DNA of 64,000 bases from Armatimonadota bacterium (GTDB lineage: Bacteria > Armatimonadota > Fimbriimonadia > Fimbriimonadales > Fimbriimonadaceae), in the NCBI GenBank assembly GCA_029781035.1, contig JAKOXK010000075.1:1-64000 (forward strand), written 5' to 3'. Shown one piece after another: positions 7,649-51,747 of this stretch. Position 1 is the stretch's first letter, and each line of letters starts with the position of its first letter. Below the pieces are notes generated by a model that ran no database searches, was not told the origin of the DNA, and saw only the letters and a program-made list of their open reading frames with translations. The translations under genes and the position numbers were made by a program.

Positions 7649-7837
7649 CAGGGGGATGGAGATCCGGGCCTGGCCTTCTCTTTAGCCACGCTTCGACCTC
7701 GTTCCGGGACTGGCACCTCCTCGACGTCGGGACACGAGGAACCGCCGAGGACGAGGCGTAGGCTTCTGCCTTGTGTACCGGCGCCGAGGGTCGTTCCGAT
7801 CTGCCCGCACAAGCATCGGCTGGACGATCTCCGCTGT

Positions 7838-8026
7838 CCATGGAAGATGCTCCCCCGACCACGGAAGATGCTCCTCCGACCATAGGAAATGCTCTACCGA
7901 CCATGGAAGATGCTCCTCCGACCATAGGAAATGCTCTTCCGACCATGGAAGATGCTCTTCCGACCATGGAAGATGCTCTTCCGACCATGGTAAATGCTCT
8001 TCCGACCATGGAAGATGCTCCGTCTT
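7838..8026. repeat. Nine tandem 21-bp repeats, each containing a dyad
   Basis: Units begin at 7838, 7859, 7880, 7901, 7922, 7943, 7964, 7985 and 8006 (the last diverges at its end). The best copies read CCAT, then GGAAGA-TGC-TCTTCC, then GA, so each holds a 6+6 bp perfect dyad. Variants in units 3 and 5 read CCATAGGAAATGC. The period is exactly two DNA helical turns, placing all dyads on one face. Confidence 0.9.
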
Positions 8027-8144
8027 CAAGGGATGACGCCTCGCCGCGGGCCCGCTCCGCTCGACTTCCTCGGCCATCTGCGTCGCCGAAGCCAAGACCA
8101 ACCTGTTCTCCGATCTGGGGCGCAAGTCGGTACAACCATCTGCC

Positions 8145-8174
8145 TTCACTACGGCCACGGGCCCCGGCTAGAAT
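8145..8174 (+). promoter_or_regulatory. Candidate sigma-70-like promoter for the beta-propeller gene
   Basis: TTCACT (8145-8150) and TAGAAT (8169-8174) are separated by 18 bases and lie about 60 bases before the GTG start. The match to TTGACA/TATAAT is four of six and five of six. It is a reading of consensus only. Confidence 0.4.
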
Positions 8175-8235
8175 CGAAGCCGTGAACGCGCACCTCGATT
8201 CATCTGCCCTGGCACAGCGGGAGGAGGCGTAATCT

Positions 8236-11826: not shown

Positions 11827-11926
11827 AGCGCGCGTCCCCGCGCGCCGAAAGAACACGCGGCGTCCCCGCGCGCCTCAAAACACGCGCTTCCTCGCGCGCC
11901 AGGGACACGGGGCGTCCCTGCGTGAC
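11827..11926. repeat. Four degenerate GC-rich hairpin repeats
   Basis: About four copies of a 25-27-base unit, each with a core like GCGTCCCCGCGCGCC followed by an A-rich AAAACACG-type linker. The first copy can form GCGCGCG-TCCC-CGCGCGC. They fill the spacer between the oxidoreductase and the 3' end of hisA, which converge, so they may act as a two-way terminator or a REP-like element. Confidence 0.65.
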
Positions 11927-12630
11927 TAACGCGAGTTCTCTATGTCCGCCAACTCGGCAAGATTCAACCTTCTGGTGTAGACGGCCATGCCCAGGGCGAC
12001 CTCAATGTCGGCGCTGACGAGGGTGCGGACCTCGTCGACCGTGGCGATGCCCCCGGCAGCGATCAGTGACTTCGTCGTGCGCTTGCGGAGGCGGAGGAAC
12101 AGGTCGAGGTCGGTGCCCTCCATCGTGCCCTCGCGGTCGACGTACGTGCACAGGAACCCCGCGCAGTAGGGCTTAAGCTCGCTGACGGCTTGCTCGGGCG
12201 TCAGCGCGACGCTCTCGTGCCATCCCTTGACTGCGACATGGCCCCTCTTGCTGTCGATCGCGAGGATGAGCCGATCCGGAGGCACCACTTGGTTGAGGGC
12301 CCGAAGGAACTCGTGGTTGATGCCGTCCGCCTGGAATGCCCTTGTGCCGACAATCACCTGCTCCGCACCGAGGTCGAGAAGCTCCTTGGCCCGGTCGACT
12401 GAGCGCACGCCTCCACCGACCCGCACGCGCTTTGCCTTCACGACATCAAGGATCATGGGTCCATTCGAACCCTGGCCCAATGCGGCGTCCAAGTCGATCA
12501 CATGGATCAAGGGAAAAGCCTCGAACAGGGCAAGCGCCTCGGCGACCGAGTCAAGTTCTAGCGCCTTGTCTCTGCCCCTGACGAGCTGAACGACCTTGCC
12601 ACCCATGAGGTCGAGGCAGGGGATGATCAC
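11926..12630 (-). CDS. hisA: Phosphoribosylformimino-AICAR-P isomerase
   Basis: A 234-residue (beta/alpha)8 barrel that isomerises ProFAR to PRFAR in histidine synthesis. The first catalytic Asp sits in [15 protein letters not shown], the second in [17 protein letters not shown]; phosphate-binding VGGGVRS and [11 protein letters not shown] are present. The stretch normally reading like TDI-RDGTLTG is [10 protein letters not shown] here, so the protein is a somewhat divergent HisA. It is last in the operon and its start overlaps the hisF stop by 4 bases (ATGA-type). Confidence 0.93.
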
Positions 12631-13388
12631 AGCGTGTGCCTCACGGTCACGCCAGCGTGGGCAAGATAATCCTTGAGGTCTGGTATGGGAATCTCACCGA
12701 AATGGAAGACGGATGCGGCTAGAGCCGCGTGACAACCTGTCTCAGCGAACACTTGCAGGAAATGCTCGCGGCTCCCCGCACCGCCTGACGCGACGACTGG
12801 GATGGTGACGGCTTCGACGACTGCTTTCGTCAGGGCGAGGTCAAAGCCTGCTTGCACACCGTCGGTGTCCATTGAAGTCAGCAGGATCTCACCGGCCCCA
12901 AGCCGCTCGGCTTCTTGAGCCCAAGCGATCGCGTCTTTTCCCGTCTGGACCCTGCCGCCTTGCACGGTCGTACGCCAGCAGTCGTCCTGTCGCTGAGCGT
13001 CTATCGCCACCACGACTGCCTGACTCCCGAACTCCGACGCCATCTCTGAGACGAGCGCTGGGCGGTTGACGGCGGCGCTGTTCACGCTCACTTTGTCCGC
13101 GCCGTTGTGGAGGAGGAGACGGGCTTGTTCCACGGATCCAATGCCGCCTCCCACTGTGAGCGGGACGAAGACGGAGCTGGCAGTCCTGGCGACGACCTCG
13201 ACCATCGTTGTGCGGCCCTCGAGAGTCGCGCTGATATCCAGGAAGACGATCTCGTCAGCGCCCTCTTCGTTGTAGCGCTGAGCGAGTTCGACAGGATCTC
13301 CCGTATCTCTAAGGTGCACGAAATTGACGCCTTTCACAACGCGACCGTCGGCGACGTCCAGACAAGGAATAATGCGCCTAGCCAGCAC
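12627..13388 (-). CDS. hisF: Imidazole glycerol phosphate synthase, cyclase subunit
   Basis: A 253-residue barrel. It matches HisF closely: [23 protein letters not shown] with the first catalytic Asp, [36 protein letters not shown] with the second acid, LLTSMDTDG and VVASGGAGS. It uses ammonia channelled from HisH to convert PRFAR into IGP and AICAR. It lies 9 bases after hisH and overlaps hisA by 4. Confidence 0.97.
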
Positions 13389-13397
13389 GGTTCCACC

Positions 13398-13982
13398 TCA
13401 TGGTGTGCCTCCGGAAAACCGATTCAGGAGTTCAAGCCCAAGCGCACCGGACTTCTCTGGATGGAACTGGACTCCTACCGCGTTTCCACTCCTGACGGCG
13501 GCGGCAAAAGCGGTTTCATAGCGGCAGCTTGCCACGGCCTCTAGACCACTGGGGACATAGTAGCTGTGTGCGAACGTGTACCAACCATTGGGTATGAGCG
13601 GGCATCCAGAGTCCACTTCGTTCCAACCCATGTGGGGCACGGCGAGGCCGACCCGGAATCGCTTGACTTCTCCCTCGATCACGCCGAGCCCAGCTGGGCC
13701 CTCGATTGCTTCCTCGCTCGCGTCGAACAGGGCGTGCATTCCTAGGCAGATACCAAGGAACGGACGGCCATCACTTGCGGCCTCGTAGAGGCTTTCCGTG
13801 AGGCCGAGGTCGTTGAGAGCTTGCATCATTTGGCCGAAGTGCCCGACCCCAGGCAAGATCACGCGATCGGCGCGCTCGACCAGCTTGGGGTCGTTAGTGA
13901 TCACGGGCCGATGGCCGAGGAACCTCACCGCGTTCTCGACGGAACGGAGGTTCCCTGCCCCGTAGTCGACAATGACGATCAT
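13398..13982 (-). CDS. hisH: Imidazole glycerol phosphate synthase, glutaminase subunit
   Basis: From ATG 13982 (194 residues), which overlaps the hisB stop as ATGA; the open frame continues upstream to 14063 but the family begins [15 protein letters not shown]. It is a class I glutamine amidotransferase: the nucleophile Cys is in [12 protein letters not shown] and the His/Glu pair in [10 protein letters not shown]. It supplies ammonia to HisF. The spacing and order (B-H-F-A) are those of many compact his operons. Confidence 0.96.
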
Positions 13983-14572
13983 AGAAGCCCCTTGGTCGAT
14001 GGGAGCCAGTCTTTCAGGCGCTCGTCGCGGGACACAGCATAGCTCAGGGCCCGGCCAAAACACTTAAAGACAGCTTCCACCTTATGGTGGTTCGAACGCC
14101 CATAGAGGACCTTCACATGGACGTTCGCCCGCGCACTCCGGGCAAACCCTTCGAAGAAGTCTGGCAAGAGCTCAGTGACCAACCCTCCGATCTGCCTGGC
14201 CCGAACCTGGTCGTTGTAGACCAGGGCTGCGCGGCCGCCTAGGTCAAGGGCGACGACGGCCAGCGTCTCGTCCATCGTCTGGACAAAGTACCCCGCACGG
14301 TTGATTCCCTTTCTATCCGCTAGAGCTTTGTCGACAAGCTCGCCCAAAACGATCCCTACATCCTCTACCGTATGATGTTGGTCGACATCGAGGTCTCCTT
14401 TAGCCCGCAGCACGAGGTCGAACTTGCCGTGCTTGGCAAAGAGGGTCAACATGTGGTCGAGGAACCCGATACCGGTTTCGATCTCTGACGCTCCAGTGCC
14501 GTCGAGCCCGAGGCTCGCCTCGACCTCCGTTTCGGCTGTGTGCCGGATGATACGAGCTACGCGGTCTTCCAC
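13979..14572 (-). CDS. hisB: Imidazoleglycerol-phosphate dehydratase
   Basis: A 197-residue monofunctional HisB (no phosphatase domain). The manganese ligands lie in [28 protein letters not shown] and the C-terminal [17 protein letters not shown]. It dehydrates imidazole glycerol phosphate to imidazole acetol phosphate. It overlaps hisC upstream by 16 bases and hisH downstream by 4, so translation is coupled along the message. Histidinol phosphatase must be encoded elsewhere. Confidence 0.97.
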
Positions 14573-15612
14573 AGTTCCTCCAGAATCTCAAGGAATCGGT
14601 CCATTTGGGTCTTGGTACCAATGGTGACACGCACGGTGCCAGGGATCTCATGGCTTCGGTCTCTCAAGAGGACTCCTTGCTGATTACATGCTCTTAGCAA
14701 CGGCTCATTCATGGCTCCTGCCCAAAACAGGACGAAGTTGCCTTGACTTGAAACGTACCGTATCTCCATCTCGGCGAACCTCTTCTCCACCCGCGAGCGC
14801 TGAATCCTGACCTCCTCGGCGAAGGCCCGGACACGGTCCTGCTCGTCGACCGCGGCAACAGCCGCCATGGCTGCGACGATGTTGACGCTATAGGGCGACT
14901 GGACGCGCTTCAGCAGAGTGGTGTTGGCTGGGTTTGAGAACAGGAACCCACACCGCAATCCTGCGAGCCCGTAGGCCTTGGACATGGTGCGACTGACCAA
15001 AAGGTTGGGGAACTCGTCGATCCAAGGAAGGGCCGTTGTCCCGCTGAACTCAAAGTAAGCTTCGTCGACCAGTACTGCCGAATGAGGGAACCGCTGCAGA
15101 ATGGCCCGGATCTGATCCAAGGGTGTCAGGGTGCCAGTTGGATTGTTCGGATTGGAAAGAAACAATGCCTTGGGCTCTGCCTGAGTGCTCAGTACGCGGT
15201 CGATGGGAAAAGAAAGCTCCTCTCCCGAATAAGGTGCGTCGTCAACGATGGCGCCCGCTACCTCGCAGTAGAACCGGTACATGGCATATGTAGGGGTGGG
15301 GATCAGGACAGTTTCGCCTGCGTCGACAAACGTGTTGACGATGATCTGAATCGCCTCGTCTGTGCCATTGGTCATGACCATATGGTCAGGCGAAACACCG
15401 AAGTGCTCGGCCAATCGGTCAAGCGATGGCTCGTAGTCGGGGTAAGTGGCCAGCAACTCCCCGTTCAATCCCAGCTGGAACAAGGCAAGCACTGAGGACG
15501 GGCACCCGACCGTGTTCTCGTTGAAGTCGAGGCGCAACTTGCCACGACGCTGGCCCGTCGGAGGCGAGTACGGCCGCATGAACTGGACTGCGCGGCGCGG
15601 GCTAAGGGACAA
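14557..15612 (-). CDS. hisC: Histidinol-phosphate aminotransferase
   Basis: A fold-type I PLP transaminase of about 351 residues making histidinol phosphate. It shows [12 protein letters not shown] at the N-terminus, [21 protein letters not shown] and the cofactor-lysine segment [18 protein letters not shown] place the start at TTG 15612: GGAGG lies 6 bases upstream and the protein then opens LSPRRAV, typical of HisC. ATG at 15579 is the alternative; the open frame to 15702 runs into hisD and is unlikely. The chosen start overlaps the hisD stop by 11 bases. Confidence 0.94.
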
Positions 15613-16846
15613 AGCGTGCCTCCAACGCCCGGGCGTGCGCTTCCAGCCCCTCGGATCGCGCAAGGGTCGTGACCGCCGGGCCAATAGCCGCCAGCGCTTC
15701 ACGACTGAGCTCTTGGAAGGTGATCACTTTGACGAAGTCGGCCGCAGAAAGCCCACCGCGCACCCTCGCGACCCCGCCGGTCGGCAAGACATGGTTGGGC
15801 CCACTCGCGTAGTCGCCGGCGGACTCACAACTCATGGGCCCGAGGAAGACGCTTCCGGCGCACGTGATCTCCCCGAGAAGCGTACTGTCGTGAAGGCACA
15901 AGTGCTCGGCGGCGAAGTCGTTCGCTATGGCGATGGCTTGCGAACGGGACTCGGCCAAAACCACTGCGCTGTTCCTGTCGATGGCGACGCGGGCAACGCC
16001 CGAGGTCGGCAAAATGTCAAGTTGACGCTCGATTTCTCCCAGGACTTGCTCGGCAAATCCTCGTGACGTCGTGATCAGAATGGCGGACGCATCGAAATCA
16101 TGTTCTGCCTGAGCCAGCATGTCGGCCGCGATCCATCGCGGATCGCCCGATTCTGCGACGATCACCACCTCCGTTGGACCCGCAACAAAGTCAATGCCGA
16201 CCTCACCTGCCAGCAGCTTCTTGGCAGCCGCAACATAGATGTTGCCGGGGCCGACAATGCGGTCGACTTTGGGGACCGTCTCCGTTCCGAACGCGAACGC
16301 TGCCAAGGCTTGGGCCCCTCCGATCTGAGCCATTCTCTGGACTCCGGAAAGTGACGCGGCCGCAAGAGTCTCGGGAGTGGGCTTGGGAGTGGTGGCCCAG
16401 ACTTCCTGGACCCCGGCAGCCTTCGCGGGAACGGCCGTCATGACGACGGTCGAAGGCAGGGGATATCGCCCTCCCGGAACATAGGCTGCAACGCGCGAAA
16501 GGGGTCGCACGATTTGGCCCACGACGTGGCCAGGTGCCAACTCAGCCCGAAACTCGCGCGGAACCTGGAGTTCCGCGAATGCTTTGACGTGCTGGATCGC
16601 TGTCACGACCGCCCTTCGAAAGTCGGAAGTGACAGTGTCCAATGCCCTGTCCAAGTCGGCAGAGTCAATCAACACTCGGTCACCCTCAAGACCGTCAAGA
16701 CGCCTCGCATGGTCCATGACGGCGGCATCGCCGCGCCGTCGCACGTCATCGATGATCGGTGCTACGACCGCTTCGGCTTCGCACAGCCTGTCGTCCTTCG
16801 TTCTCGACAGTGCGTCGGCTTGGTCAGGAGTCAGGATTCGGATCAT
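15602..16846 (-). CDS. hisD: Histidinol dehydrogenase
   Basis: A 414-residue NAD-dependent enzyme performing the last two oxidations to histidine. Family marks include GQIVRPLSRVAAYVPGGRYP, STVVMTAVPAKAAGV, GPGNIYVAAAKKLL, AGPTEVVIVAESG and the zinc-binding AEHDFDASA and GPNHVLPTGG segments. The length is normal. It starts 3 bases after hisG ends. Confidence 0.97.
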   Translation of the reverse strand: MIRILTPDQADALSRTKDDRLCEAEAVVAPIIDDVRRRGDAAVMDHARRLDGLEGDRVLIDSADLDRALDTVTSDFRRAVVTAIQHVKAFAELQVPREFRAELAPGHVVGQIVRPLSRVAAYVPGGRYPLPSTVVMTAVPAKAAGVQEVWATTPKPTPETLAAASLSGVQRMAQIGGAQALAAFAFGTETVPKVDRIVGPGNIYVAAAKKLLAGEVGIDFVAGPTEVVIVAESGDPRWIAADMLAQAEHDFDASAILITTSRGFAEQVLGEIERQLDILPTSGVARVAIDRNSAVVLAESRSQAIAIANDFAAEHLCLHDSTLLGEITCAGSVFLGPMSCESAGDYASGPNHVLPTGGVARVRGGLSAADFVKVITFQELSREALAAIGPAVTTLARSEGLEAHARALEARFVP

Positions 16847-16849
16847 CTC

Positions 16850-17719
16850 TCACACCACGATCTTGTTGAGCGGATACTCGACGATCCCAGTCGCGCCGAC
16901 CGCCTTGAGTTTGGGGATGATGGCTCGCACCAGGGACTCGGGCAGCACCGTGTTCACGGCGACCCACGTCCCATCGGCCAGAGGCGACACGGTTGGGCTG
17001 TTGAGTGACGGCAAAACGTCCAATACTTGGGGCAGCGCGGCCGATGTCACGTTGAGCATCATGCCGACCCGCCCGACTGCCGCGATCGCCCCTTCAAGCA
17101 GCAGCTTCATGTCCTCGAGCTTGCCCCGCTTCCAGTCGTCTCCCCAAGAAGCCTTGTTGGCGATCAACTGCGTGTTCGACTCCATGACCGTCTCGACGAT
17201 GCGCAACTTGTTGGCGCGCAGCGAAGAGCCGGTTTCTGTCACCTCGACGATGGCGTCCGCCAAGACTGGCGGTTTGACCTCCGTAGCGCCCCAACTGAAC
17301 TCAACTTTGGCGCTCACCCCGTTGGCGGCCAAGTACCGCCGCGTCGCACCGACCAACTCGGTCGCAATGACCTTTCCTTCCAGATCCTGGACTGAACGGA
17401 TCTTTGAGTCCTCAGGAACAGCCAAGACCCACTTGACCTTGCCGAAGCTCTGCCGGGCGTAGACCAGGTCGGCCACGGGCACGATGTCGGCGTCGGTCTC
17501 GGCGATCCAGTCCATCCCCGTAAGGCCGGCGTCCAGGATCCCGTTCTCCACGTATCGGGCCATCTCTTGGGCCCGGATCAACATGCACTCGATTTCGGGA
17601 TCGTCGATGGCGGGGAAATAGGAACGGCTGCTGACCGTCACGACCCAGCCGGCACGGCGAAAAAGCTCGATCGTGGCCGACTCAAGGCTTCCCTTCGGGA
17701 TTCCAAGGCGGAGTTTCAC
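16850..17719 (-). CDS. hisG: ATP phosphoribosyltransferase, long form
   Basis: A 289-residue long-form HisG: the periplasmic-binding-like catalytic domain ([50 protein letters not shown] for PRPP) is followed by a C-terminal ACT-like regulatory domain of about 75 residues ([20 protein letters not shown] onward). The long form needs no HisZ and is feedback inhibited by histidine. It catalyses the first, committed step. The start overlaps the hisI stop by 4 bases. Confidence 0.96.
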
Positions 17720-18096
17720 GCAAGCCCCCCATAGACGGCCGATGGGTCAAAGCGACGTTCTTCGCGAACAGCCCAATCGTCGCCATCAAGCACGCGGAAG
17801 AAGCAGCTTTCGAATCCTTCGTGACACACTCCCGGGCCGATCGGGTTTACGCGCAGGAGCACCGCGTCGTGATCACAGTCTGTCCTGGCCTCGACGACTT
17901 TGAGCACATGCCCACTGCTCTCGCCCTTTACCCACAGCTTTCCTCTTGACCGGCTGAAGAACGTAGCGAGTCCGGTCTCCACTGTCTTGCTCCACGCCTC
18001 TTGGTTCATCATGGCGAGCATCAGCACGCGCCCGGTCTCGGCATCTTGGACGATCGCCGGCACCAGACCTTCTGTCTTGTCAAAGTCGATGTTCAT
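17716..18096 (-). CDS. hisI: Phosphoribosyl-AMP cyclohydrolase
   Basis: A 126-residue monofunctional cyclohydrolase (no HisE domain). The zinc site is visible in [14 protein letters not shown] and [32 protein letters not shown] is the family core. As the first gene of the operon it has a clear GGAG seven bases before ATG. A terminator hairpin ends just upstream of that site, so expression of the whole operon passes through it. HisE must be encoded elsewhere. Confidence 0.96.
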
Positions 18097-18109
18097 ATCG
18101 GGGCTCCTG

Positions 18110-18151
18110 AAAAACGGAGCGAGCCCACCGCTTGAATGCGGTGGGCTCGCT
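18110..18151 (-). terminator. Intrinsic terminator in the his leader (attenuator)
   Basis: On the minus strand AGCGAGCCCACCGC (18151-18138) pairs perfectly with 18131-18118 over 14 bp around a six-base loop; CCG and then TTTTT (18114-18110) follow. The hisI ribosome site begins three bases later. It sits between the candidate leader peptide and hisI, so it would control entry into the operon. Reading it simply as the terminator of the upstream TIGR03790 gene is possible but it is 260 bases from that stop. Confidence 0.85.
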
Positions 18152-18171
18152 TGGTGATCTAGCAGGGATCC

Positions 18172-18237
18172 TTACGCGCGGCAACACCGCAACCCATTGG
18201 TCGCGTGATGGTGCTGCGCGGAATGGAACCGAGCCAT
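18172..18237 (-). CDS. Candidate his operon leader peptide
   Basis: A 21-codon frame MARFHSAQHHHATNGLRCCR plus A, then TAA, with four His codons including CAC CAT CAC in a row (18213-18205). It stops 21 bases before the terminator's first arm. Codons 16-18 contain TGCGGTG (18191-18185), complementary to CACCGCA at the loop end of the terminator's 5' arm. A ribosome stalled at the His run would leave it free to form an antiterminator. A weak spot is the ribosome site: only CAGG close to the ATG. TATAAG at 18282-18277 is a possible -10 box. Confidence 0.65.
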   Translation of the reverse strand: MARFHSAQHHHATNGLRCCRA

Positions 18238-18411
18238 TGGCCTGAGAAGATACCCGCTCAGGCTCGCTCCGGGGGACTTATAGGACGACTTCGTCCAATA
18301 TCTCGTCTAACTACGGGATCTGGCATGGAAGCTGAGTTCCCTTGTGAACTCCGAGAAAGCCGCAACGAGCCTCGACGCGATACGAGGAACCTAGGGTCAG
18401 CACTTGTCCAG

Positions 18412-49651: not shown

Positions 49652-49694
49652 AGCAGGGGCGCTTTTCGGTGAAGACCGGAAGCCCTCTGTTGCT
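49652..49694 (+). promoter_or_regulatory. Stable hairpin in a 200-base leader
   Basis: AGCA/TGCT, GGGG/CCTC, GCTT/AAGC and CGGT/ACCG stack (52-55 with 91-94; 56-59 with 84-87; 61-64 with 80-83; 67-70 with 75-78 of 49600s) under a GAAG loop. A second small hairpin GGC-GAAA-GCC lies near 49736. I match it to no riboswitch class I know. Confidence 0.45.
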
Positions 49695-49821
49695 TCTAGC
49701 GGCCCGTTTCAGCTATGCTGGGCACTTGTCGGATGGCGAAAGCCTGACGACAGGCATGGAAGTGCTCGCAACACGCAAGAATTCAGACAGACCGGAAGAT
49801 TCGCATGGAGGACGCGCGATA

Positions 49822-51747
49822 GTGACACGCGACGGAACGAGGCGGCAGAGGGCATCTCTGGCCCTCAAGATTTTCGCCATTGCCCTGGCGGCAGTGCCTG
49901 CATTAGCAGGCCGGCCGGCATCGGCCCAGATTGAAGCCAGGCCCCAATGGGCGGTACTGGAGTTCGCCAACAAAGGCCCGAAGTCCATGACTGTGGGCAA
50001 GATGGCGACAGACGCCTTTTCGGCGGAACTGACTCGACTCGACAAGGTCGATGTGGCTCCCGCTGAGTCAGTTGACCGCCAGACAGCGGACTTGGGTTAC
50101 CAGCCGCCTGTCACGAAGCCAGCCGACATTCAACGGCTTGGTCAAGCGTTGCAGGTGGTGACGGTGATCTCCGGCGAGGTCGTCAACTGGCGGATCGTCA
50201 CGACTCCCCAGGGCCGACAGGCGCAAGTCCTGTTGCGAACCATGGTTTGGGACGTCGCATCGGGTCTGACCGTCAATGGAGCGGCGATAGGCGCCCAGTC
50301 CGACGTCCGCAGTGGTGACATTTCTGACGAAGACCTTATTAAGAGCGCTTTGTCGCAAGGGGCCTATGAGGCCATGTCGCAGATATCCAGCCGGACTCTG
50401 CCGACGGCGACCGTGCTCAACACGCTGAACAACCGCGCCTTGATCAACCGTGGCAACCGTGCCGGGTTCGCAAAGGATCAGCGCGTTATCGTCAACCGTG
50501 GCAAGAGCCAGGTTGCCGAAGGCGTGGTCCGCGATGTTGACCCAGACTCCAGCTTCATGGAAGTCACGCGGAGCTACCGTGGCATTCAGCCAGGCGACCA
50601 GGTCCGCGTCATCTTCGACGTGCCGAACATCAAGGATTCCTTCGGGAAGGACGGGAGCGTTCAACCCAAGCGTTCCACCGGTGGCGGCAACAACTCGGGT
50701 CTTGTGTCGCTCGTAATCGTCTTGCTCATCCTGGGCTTCCTCCTTTCAGGCGGACACGCCACCAACCAGGACGGCGTCGCCAACGTGACCGCAGAAGCTC
50801 TCGTTCTGTCGAACGATGTTCCGGCAGTCAAGATCAGTTGGACACGCGACTCGTTCTTCCGGGGCACCGATCTAGGTCCCTATCAGTTCCAAGTCTGGCG
50901 CAACGATTACAACACGGCGCCTGCTGTCGTGGCGACGGCCAACCAGTCGTTCGCCTACAACGACAGGGACGGCAATTCGCCGACCACTTGGTATGACTTT
51001 GGCGGGATCATCGGCGGGGACACCTGCGACAACACGACGCCGCCTGCTGGCGGGGGCAATGCTGGCGCGACCTCGTCACCAGGCACGCCCTACTACTATT
51101 CGGTTGAAGTCGTGTACCGCGTGAGCTGCCTGGACCTTCCCGGAGGCTGTACGGGTGGCACGACGGGCGGTACGACCGGCACGACCGGTGGCACGACTGG
51201 CACGACGGGGGGCACGACCGGCCTGACGACTGGCGGCACGACCGGTGGCACGACAGGCACGACGGGTGGCACAACTGGCACGACCGGTACGACGTCGGGC
51301 ACGACGGGCACAGTCTCATACTGCTACTTCGTCACTGCCAAGGTGGCTGCGGTCGGGCAAGCGACTCCGCTGTCCCGTTCCAATCTGCGGTCTCCTGACG
51401 ACAACGCGATCGTTTCGGCTCCGACGACCTTCACGTTCACTTCGGTGCGTGGTGCTGTCGCCAGTGTGCCCCTCGAGTATGTCGTCCAGTTCTCCGACCT
51501 GCCGAGTTTCCCGCGTGGATCACGAACTTTCACGACGGATTCGTTCGTCGAACTAGTGCTGCCAGGCGGCCAGCCGGTGAGTTCGCCGACGATCGATACG
51601 TCGACGGTCGACCCGACGGCCACGGTGATCTACTGGAGAGTCGGCGTTCGGAACCCAGAAGACGTGCCGGGCCCGGTGGCGGATGCGAATGGTCAAAGGT
51701 ACGTGTGGAGTTCAGTCCGACACTTCCGGAGGCCTTCGAACCCATAA
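49822..51747 (+). CDS. CsgG/TolB-N-like exported protein with Thr-Gly linker
   Basis: 641 residues from GTG 49822 (GGAGG ten bases upstream, start of a signal peptide FAIALAAVPALAGRPASAQ). Residues about 36-200 resemble the nucleotide-binding-like domain of CsgG/FlgO/LpoB proteins (WAVLEFANKG, MATDAFSAELTRLDKVDV, ISGEVVNWRI). Then a membrane segment LVSLVIVLLILGFLL, fibronectin-like strands, a 55-residue linker made almost only of T and G (TGGTTG units, 51148-51312) and another beta-rich domain with EYVVQFSDLPSFPRG. A role in envelope assembly or secretion is inferred. Confidence 0.75.
   Translation: MTRDGTRRQRASLALKIFAIALAAVPALAGRPASAQIEARPQWAVLEFANKGPKSMTVGKMATDAFSAELTRLDKVDVAPAESVDRQTADLGYQPPVTKPADIQRLGQALQVVTVISGEVVNWRIVTTPQGRQAQVLLRTMVWDVASGLTVNGAAIGAQSDVRSGDISDEDLIKSALSQGAYEAMSQISSRTLPTATVLNTLNNRALINRGNRAGFAKDQRVIVNRGKSQVAEGVVRDVDPDSSFMEVTRSYRGIQPGDQVRVIFDVPNIKDSFGKDGSVQPKRSTGGGNNSGLVSLVIVLLILGFLLSGGHATNQDGVANVTAEALVLSNDVPAVKISWTRDSFFRGTDLGPYQFQVWRNDYNTAPAVVATANQSFAYNDRDGNSPTTWYDFGGIIGGDTCDNTTPPAGGGNAGATSSPGTPYYYSVEVVYRVSCLDLPGGCTGGTTGGTTGTTGGTTGTTGGTTGLTTGGTTGGTTGTTGGTTGTTGTTSGTTGTVSYCYFVTAKVAAVGQATPLSRSNLRSPDDNAIVSAPTTFTFTSVRGAVASVPLEYVVQFSDLPSFPRGSRTFTTDSFVELVLPGGQPVSSPTIDTSTVDPTATVIYWRVGVRNPEDVPGPVADANGQRYVWSSVRHFRRPSNP

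Follow-up and report, generated by a model that had tools for sequence, protein, structure and literature searches.

A very probable ribosome-mediated attenuator before the histidine operon of an Armatimonadota bacterium, with similar leaders in Acidobacteriota

Introduction

The window analyzed here, a stretch of 64,000 nucleotides from a contig of an Armatimonadota bacterium, carries on its minus strand a tight eight-gene histidine operon (hisI-G-D-C-B-H-F and a probable hisA). Between hisI (18096-17716) and the TIGR03790-family gene upstream of it (20820-18412) lies a leader, in which an intrinsic terminator separates a short histidine-rich frame from this first structural gene. How would transcription pass this terminator, and could the supply of histidine decide it? 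A sequence-only reading of the locus had proposed a ribosome-mediated attenuator and had named a T-box as the main alternative. The analysis described below leaves little doubt in our minds that the leader controls the hisIGDCBHFA operon as a ribosome-mediated transcription attenuator. The computed support comes from the frame, the stems, their conservation, the covariation of the terminator, the specificity of the antiterminator, the contrast between stall and stop in folding, and the position of the operon in a tree. Beyond the earlier proposal, the data point to a probably leaderless frame, to the same leaders in Acidobacteriota, and to a probable horizontal origin.

Results

The operon and its leader

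The genes of the operon were assigned as follows, all on the minus strand.

17716..18096, minus: hisI, phosphoribosyl-AMP cyclohydrolase, first gene (NCBIfam NF000768, 148.1 bits, cut-off 126)
16850..17719, minus: hisG with C-terminal domain (TIGR00070 and TIGR03455, above cut-off)
15602..16846, minus: hisD (TIGR00069, above cut-off)
14557..15702, minus: hisC (TIGR01141, above cut-off); true start probably downstream of 15702, with less hisD overlap
13979..14572, minus: hisB, dehydratase (NF002111, above cut-off)
13398..14063, minus: hisH (TIGR01855, above cut-off); true start probably downstream of 14063
12627..13388, minus: hisF (TIGR00735, above cut-off)
11926..12630, minus: probable hisA, last gene (position and HisA/HisF-like frame; second hisF-like match there in relatives)

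The elements of the leader are given in the order in which RNA polymerase would meet them.

18247..18252, minus: -10-like box TATCTT; predicted transcription start at about 18240, some 3 nt before the leader ATG (box position over 20 leaders)
18172..18237, minus: leader peptide frame MARFHSAQHHHATNGLRCCRA with its stop (sequence; His-rich frames in the same place in relatives)
18205..18213, minus: regulatory codons CAC CAT CAC, His-His-His (sequence; His run in all relatives)
18188..18205, minus: 1:2 hairpin CGCGACC-AATG-GGTTGCG (minimum-energy fold; covariation)
18185..18195, minus: antiterminator 5′ half GGGTTGCGGTG, core TGCGGTG at 18191-18185 (duplex energy; native versus swapped pairing)
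18151-18138, minus: terminator first arm, which with the loop is the antiterminator 3′ half (pairing with GGGTTGCGGTG)
18118..18151, minus: intrinsic terminator stem-loop of 14 perfect pairs (sequence; covariation)
18110..18114, minus: terminator T-run TTTTT (sequence)
18104..18108, minus: Shine-Dalgarno AGGAG of hisI (sequence)

The 21 codons of the frame run from ATG 18237-18235 to TAA 18174-18172 and contain, besides the run at codons 9-11 (18213-18205), one further histidine at codon 5 (CAT 18225-18223); His-rich frames are kept in relatives. In the minimum-energy fold, the antiterminator segment is paired with the tail of the His run and the codons that follow. The terminator joins 18151-18138 to 18131-18118 in uninterrupted pairs closed by the loop ATTCAA, and is followed by CCG and the T-run; the complement of TGCGGTG, CACCGCA, spans the inner end of its first arm. 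The frame, the 14-bp terminator and this complementarity, as described in the sequence-only reading, were confirmed base for base. The 134-nt leader has a folding energy of -70.3 kcal/mol, which relative to dinucleotide shuffles corresponds to z = -7.95, and the ribosome site of hisI, which starts with the ATG at 18096, lies outside the terminator stem.

No attenuator was seen before trpE or leuA of the window genome. The ilvB gene (large acetolactate synthase, TIGR00118) had no match in this genome (G000, assembly 96% complete) and had one in 14 of 14 control genomes; the usual pathway to branched-chain amino acids may be missing from the species, or the assembly may not contain the gene. Elsewhere in the window, a tandem array of 8.8 copies of the 21-base unit CCATGGAAGATGCTCCTCCGA occupies 7838-8021, with open frames on both strands (7771-8232 plus, 8158-7682 minus). 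Units of the GGCACGACGGGC type form overlapping tandem repeats at 51151-51311, in a Gly-Thr-rich, linker-like stretch of a long open frame (49669-51747).

Conservation of the leader in two phyla

HisI was searched for in relatives, and the regions upstream of its gene were scanned for a short His-rich frame together with a terminator. The hisI-first type of operon was present in seven genomes of the Armatimonadota family (the window genome, G008, G015, G082, G105, G106 and G108, the last with a contig end after hisI). In all seven, the 200 bases before hisI contain a short frame rich in His codons together with a strong terminator, with diverged sequences, such as MFSIHAIHHHHATNWQRCLSV (G106), VKFSLNALHHHHVNAIHPRRGSRL (G008), MAIRTVHHRHHHHAGLFRRARR (G015) and VRNFSHRHLHHNAHPLRQFGTTE (G082). 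The phylum assignment is confirmed by a named record of the family (L127), the HisG of which is identical to that of G082 (L108). G105 and G106 have, ahead of the leader frame, a second terminator-like stem that could end transcription of the upstream gene. No such combination of frame and terminator was found at the other, scattered hisI genes tested in Armatimonadota, 20 from the same family, 16 from the same order and 22 from the same phylum. The closest named relatives of this HisI belong to Bryobacterales and other Acidobacteriota, where 10 of the 12 hisI loci tested have a His-rich frame and a terminator, for example MTLVHVARHHHHSHAILRRALS (L124), MALQTQRQHHHHHGHNPRLLRCA (L138) and MIRTHHTHGHHHHGETPRAVECA (L136). 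A run of two to six His codons is present in all the relatives' leaders. The conserved His-rich frame that the sequence-only reading had asked for in relatives was thus found in both phyla.

Of 141 non-identical regions upstream of hisI, a relaxed scan scored 18 as positive, one of which (L185) is chance-like; the scan recovered four acidobacterial leaders with imperfect terminators (L123, L136, L138 and L183) and overlooked one leader (L125), which was picked up by a separate scan. The real cases are the seven hisI-first operons of the family, the 10 of Acidobacteriota, and one record labeled Ferrithrix (Actinomycetota). Among 2820 shuffled upstream regions, a His-rich frame with a terminator before hisI occurred in two, and a His-rich frame alone in six. 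Chance is excluded because frame and terminator together are common to real hisI upstream regions across relatives.

Covariation, antiterminator pairing and folding under a ribosome

Covariation was counted in an alignment of seven sequences. In the terminator stem 9 of the 14 pairs were changed on both sides, which none of 500 shuffles reached, and slid versions of the stem collapsed. The covariation of the 1:2 hairpin was modest, with both sides changed in 4 of 7 pairs, a count that 15 of 500 shuffles also reached. The 7-bp antiterminator core was kept as pairs at 75%, versus 25-53% when slid, but its column-wise covariation among these seven sequences was not above that of shuffles. Hence, the stem covariation expected by the sequence-only reading was borne out for the terminator and did not reach significance for the antiterminator core.

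As the alignment columns are poor in the antiterminator region, three tests were made that do not depend on alignment. In the window, the duplex of GGGTTGCGGTG with the terminator arm has an energy of -21.2 kcal/mol (shuffle p = 0.02), and the corresponding duplex of the post-His segment with the arm beat shuffles at p ≤ 0.05 in 11 of 18 leaders. When the segments were swapped between 17 leaders, the mean pairing weakened from -17.8 kcal/mol (native) to -13.7 kcal/mol (swapped; p = 5e-5), and swaps within three groups gave p = 0.02, 0.015 and 0.04. G008 forms only a weak simple duplex, which at -9.0 kcal/mol ranks last among the 17 arms. These data show that antiterminator pairing has been retained and that it is leader-specific.

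The nascent RNA was also folded under a ribosome mask. For the window leader, the folding predicted that the terminator arm pairs with RNA upstream of it at 0.78 when the ribosome sits on the His codons, at 0.00 when it sits at the stop codon, and at 0.42 when no ribosome is present. The mean contrast between stall and stop over 18 leaders was 0.67, versus 0.18 in shuffles (combined p ~2e-12, uncorrected for kinship); such combined p-values are optimistic because the leaders are partly related. By this modeling, terminator and antiterminator would exclude each other, and the antiterminator would be released by a stall on the His codons and hidden by a ribosome at the stop, which supports the switching logic proposed in the sequence-only reading.

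A probable leaderless start

A sigma-70 promoter scan of the window leader returned no promoter because its -35 region is poor, and no -35 box was recognizable upstream of it; the -10 box was therefore tested by its position over all leaders. A TANNNT motif 6-10 nt before the leader start was present in 17 of 20 leaders, compared with a mean of 1.2 at shifted positions (maximum 6, 121 shifts) and of 4.5 in shuffles (maximum 10, 2000 shuffles). In the window, the box at 18252-18247 lies 9 nt before the leader ATG, and several Bryobacterales have an extended -10 box, TGTTATACT or TGTTATAAT, 8-9 nt before the ATG. Across the window at large, the same signal before candidate starts is only mildly enriched (4.0% versus 2.0%). 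No Shine-Dalgarno sequence was found at the likely start of any leader except those of G073 and G075. These observations suggest that the transcript is probably leaderless, or nearly so, with respect to the leader frame, and we infer its start from the -10 boxes. The start predicted in this way is upstream of the frame, and not downstream of 18151, a placement that the sequence-only reading had considered contrary to its proposal.

A second type of his operon in Armatimonadota

Armatimonadota also have a hisG-first type of his operon, which is unrelated (HisG identity 30-36%) and is likewise preceded by His leaders, such as MFVLGHHHHAHSPAG (G025), MRSMVGFVHHHHSDLRPV (G046), VTKSRFANQHHHHHHV (G107) and MTGFFRHHHHSHHHHA (G067), with starts picked by the -10 box where one is present; no His leader was seen in G010 and G090. 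In three of these genomes the terminator itself takes in the end of the frame, its first arm and loop containing the final His codons together with the stop codon (CATCATTGCG-CCTAAGTTGC-CGCAATGATG-TTTTTT).

L111 5420-5524, plus: his leader of G021, His codons inside the terminator
L116 5026-5091, plus: his leader of G073, His codons inside the terminator
L120 4799-4864, plus: his leader of G075, His codons inside the terminator

With the codons so placed, a stalled ribosome would block the terminator directly, without a separate antiterminator, and this is the likely mode in these three leaders.

Origin of the operon

In a tree of HisG, the hisI-first operons of Armatimonadota form one set with Bryobacterales (support 96), which itself belongs to a larger group of mostly acidobacterial sequences, while 27 HisG sequences of the scattered type from the same order form a separate group (support 91). 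Because the tree nests the operon among Bryobacterales, the simplest reading is a joint transfer from Acidobacteriota: operon and attenuator are of an acidobacterial (Bryobacterales) type and probably entered the Armatimonadota family together by horizontal transfer, presumably in that direction. Three other genomes of the window genus (G001, G002 and G003; G001 is 99% complete) gave no match to HisI, HisG or HisD; they may be histidine auxotrophs, and the window species may have acquired its operon. G001 has an ortholog of the gene upstream of the his operon (57% identity, L235 6240-8660) among different neighbors and without his genes, so that a clean insertion junction was not found at this locus. 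The record titled Ferrithrix thermotolerans (L130, CAMCUE010000054.1), both HisG and leader of which group with Bryobacterales, may be wrongly labeled, since its HisG falls among theirs, or its operon may have been transferred again.

Discussion

Could the leader work without translation, or its terminator without the leader? A histidine T-box riboswitch, in which uncharged tRNA-His would bind the leader directly and stabilize an antiterminator, was brought up in the sequence-only reading by the similarity of GGTGTTGCCGCG (18188-18177) to the T-box core with two mismatches. This string is lost in the nearest relatives (GCGGTGTTTGAGCG in G106), which keep the His codon runs, and T-box models matched neither the window nor any of 20 related loci, even when E values up to 10 were admitted near the leader. 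Moreover, the leader is only about 130 nt long, and known T-box leaders are longer than that. We regard a T-box as extremely improbable. The presence of a strong terminator between two genes of the same strand would also agree with an ordinary terminator, for instance of the upstream gene (20820-18412), next to a coincidental His-rich frame, with hisI having its own promoter or constitutive read-through. However, the frame, the His run, the antiterminator complementarity and the terminator recur jointly before hisI in two phyla, the terminator stands between the predicted promoter and hisI, and the second stem in G105 and G106 could serve the upstream gene there; a coincidence of this kind is very unlikely.

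The ribosome could also act at another step, either by controlling hisI translation through reinitiation or access to the ribosome site, or by blocking the terminator arm when stalled, without an antiterminator. The layout of the leaders of G021, G073 and G075 and the ilvB precedent in Actinobacteria (PMC1262725) lend some weight to direct blocking, but in the window leader over 50 nt separate the last His codon from the terminator arm downstream, too great a distance for such blocking. The hisI ribosome site lies off the stem, and the antiterminator pairing is leader-specific, which makes us give this explanation, too, only a slight chance.

Under ribosome-mediated attenuation with an antiterminator, RNA polymerase would start a few bases before the 21-codon frame, with a ribosome trailing it. 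When charged tRNA-His is scarce, the ribosome would stall at CAC CAT CAC and disrupt the 1:2 hairpin, and the freed GGGTTGCGGTG would pair with the terminator's first arm and loop while the second arm is still to be transcribed, allowing the polymerase to read into hisI. When histidine is plentiful, the ribosome would reach the UAA at 18174-18172 and cover GGGTTGCGGTG, and the 14-bp terminator would form and end transcription just before hisI. Such switching must be kinetic, because the terminator is far stronger than the antiterminator.

As to the history of these leaders, we lean toward the view that leaderless His attenuators are ancestral in the his operons of Acidobacteriota and spread to Armatimonadota as one unit with the operon, while the second his operon of Armatimonadota evolved or acquired leaderless attenuators of its own in two layouts. 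If this is true, attenuators would be a portable form of cis-regulation, able to function in a new phylum since only the ribosome and polymerase of the recipient are needed. The data suggest that such switches move with their operons between phyla, and that translation and transcription in the little-studied Armatimonadota and Acidobacteriota are coupled tightly enough for an attenuator.

In the literature searched, coverage of which is incomplete and leaves priority uncertain, no His attenuator was described in Armatimonadota or Acidobacteriota. As far as this search goes, classical ribosome-mediated attenuation is new to both phyla, and the leaders extend its amino-acid-specific form to them. 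A 2005 survey of Actinobacteria reported no attenuator before his operons (PMC1262725). In the ilvB leaders of that phylum the regulatory codons overlap the terminator (PMC1262725), so that codons of the regulated amino acid lie in its first arm as they do in G021, G073 and G075; these leaders respond to branched-chain amino acids, belong to another phylum, and have a layout unlike that of the window leader. Among Firmicutes, His leaders have been predicted before hisS and hisZ in bacilli (PMC2965389) and before his operons in the Bacillus cereus group, Peptostreptococcaceae and Erysipelotrichales, one of which was proposed to have moved horizontally with its operon (PMC9413887). Like the window leader, they combine a His-rich peptide, a terminator and an antiterminator outside Proteobacteria, while their phyla and operon layout differ, and the likeness does not imply common descent. 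A leaderless leader peptide has precedents in trpL of S. meliloti (PMC7298713) and in the mycobacterial polycysteine short ORFs, the Cys leaders (Canestrari et al. 2020, as cited in PMC13236596). There, as probably in the window, the transcript opens directly with the regulatory frame, while the amino acid sensed is Trp or Cys and the start in the window is deduced from -10 boxes only.

No Rfam family, including His_leader (RF00514) and T-box, matched in the window or in the 20 related loci. His_leader gave nothing at its gathering score and, like T-box, nothing near the leader when E values as high as 10 were allowed. Rfam-based annotation pipelines would overlook these leaders because the Rfam models do not match them. 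The E. coli his leader has seven consecutive His codons. The window leader has three, precedes an operon that starts with hisI and not hisG, is read from an apparently leaderless frame, and belongs to a type found in Armatimonadota and Acidobacteriota. It would thus work like the enterobacterial leader, the logic of which the sequence-only reading had recognized here, yet stands outside the Rfam His_leader family. With the enterobacterial hisL it shares a short frame holding several His codons in a row, the 1:2, 2:3 and 3:4 pairings, and a terminator just before the first his gene.
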